From: Hyphomonadaceae bacterium JAD_PAG50586_4
GTDB taxonomy: Bacteria > Pseudomonadota > Alphaproteobacteria > Caulobacterales > Aquidulcibacteraceae
Reading direction: 5' to 3'
DNA length: 64,000 nucleotides
Assembly: GCA_023242925.1 (NCBI GenBank)
Contig: CP096134.1
Span: 3,243,501 to 3,307,500, forward strand
Below are positions 7,161 through 21,410 of the stretch, piece by piece (position 1 is the first letter of the stretch; the number at the start of each line of letters is the position of its first letter). The notes below the pieces were generated by a model that made no database searches, was not told the DNA's origin, and was given only the letters and a program-made list of their open reading frames with translations. A program made the translations under genes and the position numbers.

Positions 7161-7235
7161 GCGCTCGTAGTTCAACGTATAGAACGCACGCCTGCTAAGC
7201 CTGAGATACGGGTTAGATTCCCGTCGAGCGCGCCA
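7161..7235 (+). tRNA. Degenerate tRNA with anticodon GCT, probable decayed tRNA-Arg
   Basis: The acceptor stem GCGCTCG/CGAGCGC is perfect, the CCA is encoded, and a D stem GTTC/GAAC and T stem ACGGG/CCCGT form. The anticodon loop CTGCTAA gives GCT (Ser), but there is no long variable arm (AGAT only), so it is not a normal bacterial tRNA-Ser. The body looks like tRNA-Arg(CCT). The D loop lacks the usual GG, the T loop is TTAGATT instead of TTCGANT, and the anticodon stem CACGC/GCCTG has a mismatch. I read it as a decayed or element-borne tRNA-Arg derivative. Sequencing error could explain part of this. Confidence 0.6.
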
Positions 7236-19814: not shown

Positions 19815-19989
19815 TTTGACTGTGGCGCCTGCGTCATCGCGCGGATTGGCCCTATGCAGGATTGCCAGGGTTCCAGATCGACCGAGCGGCGCGGTAGCGC
19901 CAAGCGCGCCGGCGCGCCTCAGGCGCCTGATCCGCAGGCGAAATTAACTACGTTGCGCTCTTTACATTGGGGAACGATCACCATATTTC

Positions 19990-20205
19990 GCATCGTTACC
20001 GGCGGACCTGGAAACAGCGTCCACTAACGCCCCCTCGGCCCAGGCCACCTGGGGGATCGCAAGCAACGGGAAGCAGGATGCTTCCTAGGCGATCCTCCGG
20101 CGCAAGCTCCCAAGGGCGGACCTGACATTAATGCATGTCCGACTAACGCCGGCCTGGGTTTAACAAACGTCGCTTCAAAGCGGCGGCATTGTTTTGGGAG
20201 CTGCC
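19990..20205 (+). ncRNA. Structured 5' leader of ornithine decarboxylase, speF-motif candidate
   Basis: About 215 bases before the decarboxylase form an elaborate structure. A motif GGCGGACCTG...GTCC-ACTAACGCC occurs at 20001-20031 and again at 20115-20150; in each, GGCG pairs with CGCC and GGAC with GTCC around an ACTAA internal loop. Between them, GGATCGC (about 20054) pairs with GCGATCC (about 20090) and encloses GGAAGCA-GGA-TGCTTCC. A final hairpin CGTCGCTT/AAGCGGCG (about 20168-20185) precedes GTTTT and the GGGAG ribosome site. Alphaproteobacteria are known to carry a conserved speF RNA motif at this place. I match it by position and architecture, not by alignment. Confidence 0.65.
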
Positions 20206-20207
20206 GG

Positions 20208-21410
20208 ATGGACTCTGTCCTCTCGCCTCTTGACCTGACTGCGCTTGATGCGCCGGAAGGTCCCGTGGCTATCGCACGTCCGCACCGCGTCGCCGCGGCT
20301 GCGTCCTGGTTCCGTGAAAATTTTCCGGGCGAGGTGTTTTACGCCGTAAAGGCGAATCCGAGCCCGTGGGTGCTCGACGCGCTCTGGGAAAACGGCGTCC
20401 GCAATTTCGACGTCGCCTCCGAGACGGAAGTCGAGCTTGTGGCCTCGCGCTATCCTGGCGCGCAGATCGCTTTCATGCACCCGGTGAAGTCACGCCGCGC
20501 CATCGCGCGCGCCTATCGCGAATTCGGCGTCAAGACGTTCGCCATCGATAGCGAAGACGAACTCGACAAAATCCTCGCTGAAACAGGCGGCGCCAAGGAT
20601 CTGACTTTGGTCGTCCGCTTTGCCGTGTCGGGCGATGGCGCAGCCTACCCGCTCGCGCGCAAGTTCGGCGTCACCGAAGAAGAAGCGCCCGCCCTGCTGC
20701 GCCGGGCGCGCCAAGCGACCGAAGAGATGCTGGGCGTCTCGTTCCACGTCGGCAGCCAATGCATGCGTCCGGATGCCTACCGCACCGCGATGGAAATGGT
20801 GAACCGCGCGATCGTGAAAGCAGGCGTCGTGGTCGATATCGTCGATATCGGCGGGGGCTTTCCGGCGATCTATCCCGGCATGAACCCGCCGGCGATGATC
20901 GAGTACGCCAAGACGATCAAAGACGCGTTCGAGGAAATGTTCGTCGCTCAGAACGCTAAGCTCTGGGCCGAGCCCGGCCGTGCGCTCGTGGCCGAAGCGG
21001 GCTCGACCGTGGCGCGCGTTGAACTGCGCAAGGGCGATGCGCTTTATCTGAACGATGGCGCCTTCGGCACGTTGTTTGACGCCACGCACCTGAATTGGTC
21101 GTTCCCGGCCAAGCTGCTGCGCGCCACGGAAAGCCGCGCCAAACTCGCGCCGTTCCGTCTCTATGGCCCGACCTGCGATTCAATGGACGCGGCCGCTGGC
21201 CCGTTCATGCTGCCGGCCGACATCAGCGAAGGCGATCTGATCGAGATCGGTTCGCTGGGCGCCTACGGCATGGCGATGGCGACGCGCTTCAACGGTTTCG
21301 GCGAAGCCGTGACCATGGAAGCCAAGGACTCGCCGTGGCCGAGCATGTATGGCGCAGCGCCCGTCGCGAAGCCCAAGCGCGCGCGGACGAGCAAGCCCAA
21401 GCAGGCCTAA
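20208..21410 (+). CDS. speF: Type III PLP-dependent ornithine/lysine decarboxylase
   Basis: It makes putrescine from ornithine (or cadaverine from lysine). The 400-residue protein has the alanine-racemase-like barrel with the PLP lysine in VFYAVKANPSPWVL (about residues 44-57). It also has FHVGSQC with the PLP-contact His, DIGGGFP, and AEPGRALVAEAGS. The C-terminal catalytic CDS-MDAAAG motif (YGPTCDSMDAA) supplies the active-site cysteine and aspartate from the partner subunit. The C-terminus ends in a lysine-rich tail (PKRARTSKPKQA). It is translated from GGGAG at the end of a structured leader, so RNA-level control is likely. Confidence 0.93.
   Translation: MDSVLSPLDLTALDAPEGPVAIARPHRVAAAASWFRENFPGEVFYAVKANPSPWVLDALWENGVRNFDVASETEVELVASRYPGAQIAFMHPVKSRRAIARAYREFGVKTFAIDSEDELDKILAETGGAKDLTLVVRFAVSGDGAAYPLARKFGVTEEEAPALLRRARQATEEMLGVSFHVGSQCMRPDAYRTAMEMVNRAIVKAGVVVDIVDIGGGFPAIYPGMNPPAMIEYAKTIKDAFEEMFVAQNAKLWAEPGRALVAEAGSTVARVELRKGDALYLNDGAFGTLFDATHLNWSFPAKLLRATESRAKLAPFRLYGPTCDSMDAAAGPFMLPADISEGDLIEIGSLGAYGMAMATRFNGFGEAVTMEAKDSPWPSMYGAAPVAKPKRARTSKPKQA

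Follow-up and report, generated by a model that had tools for sequence, protein, structure and literature searches.

The ornithine decarboxylase (ODC) open reading frame at 20208-21410 of the window, as we call the whole 64,000-nucleotide stretch of DNA analysed here, is directly preceded by a leader RNA (19990-20210). This leader is probably a cis-regulatory element of the ODC mRNA, most likely a riboswitch with a junction fold and a candidate ligand from the polyamine pathway. Comparison of related sequences supports that the two copies of a motif contained in it are the halves of one pseudo-two-fold four-way junction, composed of P1, hairpin A, P2 and hairpin B. Through its product putrescine, ODC opens the way to polyamines. 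A conserved ODC leader that exists in one-module and in interlocked two-module forms allows a direct comparison of aptamer doubling, and provides a clean test bed for the ability of RNA to sense a small symmetric diamine.

The leader and its gene

Features are on the plus strand unless stated otherwise. The 400-amino-acid product of 20208-21410 contains the fold-III decarboxylase domains PF02784 and PF00278 of Pfam, its closest PDB relatives (5gjm, 5gjo and 2plj) are lysine/ornithine decarboxylases, and for each of the seven NCBIfam models listed, lysA among them, its score stays below the curated cut-off. By its domains and relatives it is an ODC (or lysine/ornithine decarboxylase) of fold III, in agreement with the type III ODC of the initial annotation. 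The leader is located in the divergent intergenic region between this gene and two ABC transporter permease genes (PF00528; 17624-19743, minus strand). A tRNA gene at 7161-7232 (63.4 bits) is the sole match at Rfam gathering score in the window, and the plasmid collection searched gave no match.

The duplicated motif, GGCGGACCTG..GTCC.ACTAACGCC, was located at 20001-20031 (copy 1) and 20115-20150 (copy 2), with the starts 114 bases apart, and the strong hairpin nested between the copies, which varies among leaders, lies at about 20051-20098; both elements had been described correctly from the sequence. A pattern search of the 4.18-Mb genome found the motif at exactly these two places, both in the ODC leader, and the reversed pattern gave 0 matches; for a stricter pattern, which fits copy 2 only, 0.00 matches are expected by shuffling. 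Folding of the 223-nt leader gave a z-score of -4.16, 0 of 200 shuffles being as good.

A probable promoter (TTTACA, 17-nt spacer, TATTTC; 19961-19989) ends 9 nt before P1. TTTAC followed by A or T, with 17-19 nt to TA, is present close 5' of P1 in 34 of the 46 distinct leaders, one of which is truncated; a sigma-70 consensus scan reported 0 promoters at the leader. Given the position of the promoter-like pair just before P1, the RNA would start at the junction. A putative upstream peptide that would begin with ATG 20131, within copy 2, was discounted on inspection by eye, as relatives carry GCAUGUCCGACUAA, with a stop after MSD.

Fold of the two copies

In the proposed fold, P1 is built by the 5' flank of copy 1 (CCGGC, 19999-20003) and the 3' flank of copy 2 (GCCGG, 20148-20152), and P2 by the 3' flank of copy 1 (GCCC, 20029-20032) and the 5' flank of copy 2 (GGGC, 20114-20117). 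Each side has a helix that is directly continued by a GGACCUG hairpin, and an ACUAAC linker then connects this hairpin with the following helix: hairpin A (GGAC-CUG-GAAA-CAG-C-GUCC, 20004-20022) is followed by linker 1 (ACUAAC, 20023-20028), and hairpin B (GGAC-CUGACAUUAAUGCAU-GUCC, 20118-20140) by linker 2 (GACUAAC, 20141-20147).

Comparison of the copies across relatives, for which the initial annotation had foreseen covariation as the test, bore out a conserved ODC leader in which P2 covaries. In each of the 46 distinct twin cores P1 comprises 4-6 consecutive pairs; being nearly invariant, it offers little covariation and cannot be tested by permutation. P2 has at least 4 consecutive pairs in 41 of these cores, 3 in four and 2 in one, and its flanks occur as GCCC:GGGC, ACCU:AGGU, GCGCCC:GGGUGC, GUACCC:GGGUGC and GUCCCUUC:GAAGGGGC, among others that bring the distinct combinations to 12. 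With their own partners these combinations form on average 5.42 of 6 pairs, versus 3.73 when partners are swapped. The observed total was matched by 0 of 100,000 permutations over six positions and by 6 of 100,000 over the first four, figures that are not strict probabilities since the combinations share ancestry. Position 3 of P2 is occupied by five standard pair types.

Linker 1 is ACUAAC in 45 of the 46 cores and ACGAAC in one, and linker 2 is GACUAAC in 45 and UACUAAC in one, an invariance that is partly by construction because the pattern that defines the 46 cores requires both linkers (linker 1 only as ACUAAC or ACGAAC, linker 2 holding ACUAAC). A model search over 59 loci gave 57 matches. 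One leader (L116 of genome G002, the same as L106) combines the usual P1, P2 and ACUAAC linker 1 with GACAUCCC as linker 2, and lies outside the pattern also in GGACACUGG of copy 1. No other twin leader seen has linker 2 broken while P1 and P2 are intact; this one could be a natural mutant, a leader for another ligand or an assembly error.

The compact leaders of one genus, g158 (L108-L110 and L128), consist of CCGGC (CGGC in two), a GGACCUG..GUCC hairpin, ACUAAC, a P2 stem-loop, a second GGACCUG..GUCC hairpin, GACUAAC and GCCG. Here the flanks of copy 1 are unable to pair mutually and pair instead with the flanks of copy 2; the P1 and P2 columns of this genus are unselected, as its leaders were found by the model and not by the pattern.

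RNAalifold applied to 40 leaders gave a covariation term of -0.33, with double changes in 5 of 39 pairs, four of them in the variable hairpin; it finds almost no covariation because this alignment is so conserved. Its consensus is a nested structure that includes the decoy strand described below and not the junction, and is kept here as an alternative state rather than as the core.

The element shows traits looked for in a riboswitch: a conserved structured leader before a metabolic gene, with covariation. P1 and P2 are helices common to both copies, which therefore resemble the halves of one junction more than two independent aptamers; they may bind two ligands or act cooperatively, as had been suggested for the tandem arrangement.

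Distribution of the twin form

A looser pattern was found in 32 of 61 genomes, namely in 32 of 37 members of the same family and in none of 24 genomes that represent four further families of the order; the reversed control matched 3 of the 61. A scan of named species genomes, with a pattern that requires the GGC/GCC flanks, gave 41 stretches, and all 38 that could be classified precede an ODC-like frame; the others are two cut at contig ends (L039 and L044) and one in Mycolicibacterium (L050) that looks like chance. Many leaders were likewise gathered by patterns that hold the motif. Among the named records with a twin leader are Terricaulis, Aquidulcibacter, Candidatus Phycosocius and Hyphomonadaceae UKL13-1, the first two belonging to Caulobacterales. 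Judging from the shared leaders and from kin in the named records, the family that carries the twin form (f1) would be the Terricaulis/Aquidulcibacter group. Across relatives the copies are 89-155 nt apart.

A covariance model (R1) made from 40 leaders was applied to 299 genomes of the order and matched 52, every one of them from the same family, which has 60 genomes in the set. Its eight misses in the family comprise a compact twin form (G262), a single module (G031), a genome with no leader seen (G216), one with only a distant decarboxylase paralogue (G011), two with one copy near a contig end (G024 and G025), and G006 and G014. In a sample of 385 genomes of the class R1 matched the genome of the window alone; since no more than 7-14 candidates per genome are scored when many genomes are searched by model, absence outside the order is provisional. 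One genome (G306) has two twin-form leaders (L117 and L118), apparently before two ODC copies.

Single-module leaders and other families

In the sister family f3, which probably corresponds to Caulobacteraceae, 59 of 60 genomes carry a single-module form, CCGGC-GGAC..CUAAC-GCCGG, and the sole miss (G407) has the same ends with a longer insert (L207). The pattern CCGGCGGAC-N5-35-CTAACGCCGG occurs in 61 of 299 genomes of the order: the 59 of f3, G031 of f1, and G410 of f2, whose match is short and perhaps due to chance; the reversed pattern occurs in about 11 of the 299. The ODC context was read for 36 single-module loci (some genomes counting twice), and in all 36 an ODC frame follows within 330 nt. 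CUGGGU is kept after GCCGG with few exceptions. A model of the single module matched 2 of 318 genomes of the class, both from f3. In the f3 leaders L120-L123 and L177-L205 ODC starts with UUG (once GUG), and a further GUG start precedes it by two nt, frequently within ACGUG..CACGU.

Other families show more distant forms. Five f4 leaders and L124 have CCGGC..GCCGG without CUAAC. Several f2 leaders have CUAAC twice with other hairpins; L126, L217, L219, L221 and L223 have two or more CUAAC, together with a different, short inner stem that reads CCAC-UCG-GUGG or CCC..GGG. These f2 leaders are perhaps independent or decayed forms of the twin junction. In f5, five leaders are without CUAAC and a further one (L129) has a lone CUAAC.

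Putative expression platform

Downstream of the variable hairpin, the decoy strand CCGGCGCAAGCTCCCAA (20097-20113) repeats the P1 and P2 flanks of copy 1 without the hairpin, and can base-pair with either the flanks of copy 2 or the Shine-Dalgarno/start region. In the latter (20194-20207), which has the Shine-Dalgarno sequence GGGAG at 20196-20200 and GCCGG immediately ahead of the start codon, 14 positions can pair with 20097-20101 and 20105-20113. A strict pattern recovers the order ribosome site, GCCGG, start codon from 30 of the 46 leaders. The decoy consensus GGYGYAAGC is present in 42 of the 46 distinct cores, and so are CCCAGG and CUGGG together; all three are jointly absent in the 4 compact ones. 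In the window CCCAGGCC (20039-20046) is complementary to GGCCUGGG (20151-20158), an alternative or pseudoknotted pairing; as CCCAGG and CUGGG are invariant where present, they show no covariation, and the decoy is likewise conserved too strongly for such a test.

The duplex of decoy and start region has -23.9 kcal/mol in the window. Over 35 distinct pairs, whose start codons were picked by rule (more than one candidate in four rows; L004, L043 and L063 look wrong), the mean is -19.4 kcal/mol versus -11.7 kcal/mol for shuffled start regions, and 28 of the 35 duplexes are in the best 5% of their own shuffles. With swapped partners the mean is -19.0 kcal/mol, nearly equal to that of own partners; thus the two regions are complementary beyond shuffles but do not covary. 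The complementarity of the decoy to the Shine-Dalgarno/start region suggests translational control of ODC.

For the window leader, several alternative folds differ by at most 2.3 kcal/mol: the minimum (-102.9 kcal/mol), the decoy state (-102.5) and the decoy on the Shine-Dalgarno sequence (-100.6). The junction, enforced without pseudoknot, has -89.3 kcal/mol, 13.6 above the minimum, which speaks against it as the ground state; tertiary contacts, a ligand, folding kinetics or a pseudoknot would be needed for it to win.

In the compact genus g158 the junction is kept and the rest, decoy and downstream part included, is replaced. There a terminator-like stem with TTTTAGTT comes after the junction, and between this stem and the ODC start lies a conserved stretch. 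This arrangement would represent a different expression platform, as in aptamers with changed platforms.

A model for control and its alternatives

We propose that the linkers and the GGACCUG hairpins would form a ligand site, whose candidate ligand belongs to the metabolites of this pathway (ornithine, putrescine or a further polyamine). Both copies would be rivals of the decoy strand (20097-20113), copy 1 in pairing with the flanks of copy 2 and copy 2 in pairing with the Shine-Dalgarno/start region, and formation of the junction would alter the access to the ribosome binding site. Ligand-dependent strand exchange of this kind fits the complementarity of the decoy and the near-equal fold energies. 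Our best guess for its sign is product feedback, the metabolic default, in which the ligand would stabilise the junction, the decoy would pair with the start region and ODC would be switched off. The opposite sign, with a junction that frees the start region under induction by ornithine, is nearly as likely and is allowed by the topology; once the junction is formed, pairing of decoy and start region would be a pseudoknot, a point against a firm choice between the two signs. A more far-reaching proposal, which we advance only tentatively, is that the leaders constitute a new putrescine/ornithine riboswitch class of Caulobacterales, whose single-module aptamer was duplicated in one family to give an interlocked, pseudo-symmetric four-way junction that can bind two ligands, or one symmetric diamine, cooperatively, the decoy, as a mimic of one half, driving strand exchange at the start codon.

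The part assigned to a small molecule could be played by a protein (or sRNA), the twin ACUAAC sites being a bipartite protein-binding RNA that controls translation. We regard this as unlikely, though it deserves weight: the leader does hold two like, short conserved sites, in this genome carried by ODC only, and its ligand is a candidate. Conservation, however, extends beyond two sites to a closed junction of fixed topology, and the changed platform of the compact form is typical of riboswitches, although a protein is compatible with both.

Transcription attenuation, with or without ligand, would be possible at the hairpin with a T-rich tail at 20168-20187, a lineage-specific terminator-like site with 2 overlapping predictions versus a mean of 0.2 in shuffles. 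The final stem had been proposed as an attenuator from the start; the stem and its T tract were recovered, but a feature of the kind, a stem followed by 5 T in 8, is present in only 12 of the 46 distinct leaders. These include the window leader and all 4 compact cores, in which it follows the junction. Taking into account that 34 leaders lack it, and that the T-rich tail here leads straight into the Shine-Dalgarno sequence, attenuation seems rather improbable; the 12 cases indicate that lineages may have different expression platforms.

More doubtful still is the reading as a tandem of two independent aptamers or riboswitches, each made of one hairpin closed by GGC:GCC. Each copy in this genome can form 3 local flank pairs, and the existence of a single-module form in the sister family would agree with self-sufficient units. 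Nevertheless, the copies do not each fold alone throughout the family: the local flank pairing of copy 1 has 3 pairs in 39 of 46 cores, 2 in 3 and none in 4, and that of either copy ends after three positions almost everywhere, while the pairing between copies is kept with compensating changes. Moreover, the fixed pattern finds both copies together in 40 of 42 distinct leaders, the other two being one cut at a contig end (L054) and one with ACGAAC in copy 1 (L070). The local closure of each copy that the initial annotation had drawn was dropped on account of these pairing counts and of the g158 leaders, which favour pairing between the copies as the one kept in evolution. The preferred reading of the leader is a single junction, probably a riboswitch.

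Comparison with known systems

The speF motif (RF00518) of alphaproteobacteria, with which the leader had been provisionally equated, has the same context, a COG0019-type ODC downstream. The identity was rejected, since RF00518 has no match at gathering score in the 64-kb window, nor at E<=10 in 19850-20260, and real speF leaders look different. The only hit at E<=10 in that interval is Flavivirus_SLIV, on the other strand, with 20.1 bits against a gathering score of 54.5. The twin form matches no Rfam 15 family at gathering score, the same holds for eight related loci, and one single-module leader searched at E<=10 gave three weak unrelated hits only. In the class sample RF00518 was found in 4 of 142 genomes at E<=0.001, three of them over the cut-off and the genome of the window not among them; its four loci (about 3.1 kb each) contain neither GGACCTG nor CTAACG on either strand. 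In the available passages of Corbino et al. (PMC1273637), speF RNA is likewise an alphaproteobacterial leader of a COG0019 ornithine decarboxylase, but with another conserved sequence and fold, and the speF leader of A. tumefaciens, which is unrelated to the present one, did not bind six compounds of the pathway. Hence ODC leaders need not bind pathway compounds directly.

Tandem-aptamer riboswitches such as those for glycine and guanidine-II also have two similar conserved units per leader, and the guanidine-II hairpins act as an interacting pair, according to the part consulted of PMC9481103. In contrast, the units here share helices and close one four-way junction, match no Rfam family and have only a candidate ligand. 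For putrescine, ornithine or polyamines, the spermidine riboswitch, a SAM-I variant, was the only case found in the non-subscription literature. As presented in the sections available of PMC10853860 it is likewise a leader RNA that controls the polyamine pathway; unlike the present leader it has a SAM-I-like aptamer, whereas here no riboswitch family was matched at gathering score or E<=10.

A further published system is odc1 (uORF-25-1), an alphaproteobacterial ODC leader thought to control access to the start codon (PMC8632094, in part). The comparison was made by eye against the published text description only. That the present leader is the odc1 motif or a divergent member of it is very improbable: gene and class are the same, and one twin-form relative (L006) has, about 63 nt past linker 2, a GUG-CG-UUG double start, two start codons 2 nt apart, with an overlapping 11-codon frame (VRWTISILPWT, translated by eye), but in its description odc1 has just one hairpin, with the ribosome site in the right shoulder of P1, an 11-aa uORF and a pseudoknot that links the 5' end and the loop, the text seen has no twin GGACCUG/ACUAAC junction, and the window leader has neither the two start codons nor the 11-aa uORF, the codon 5 nt upstream of ATG 20208 being GCC. 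One leader (L150) fits the odc1 text by eye, yet is without CUAAC. The single-module f3 leaders were also considered as odc1 for their GUG-NN-UUG starts; this was dropped since their overlapping frame from GUG is not closed at 11 codons. Titles and abstracts among the best matches in the non-subscription literature on ODC leaders, riboswitches and structured-RNA surveys describe no such junction, and the main text of PMC11109978 has no mention of ornithine, polyamine, Caulobacter, decarboxylase, putrescine or alphaproteobacteria. Within this coverage the leader would be new, a candidate ODC leader of riboswitch-like type whose tandem architecture is interlocked, and would be set apart from odc1 by the description of the latter.
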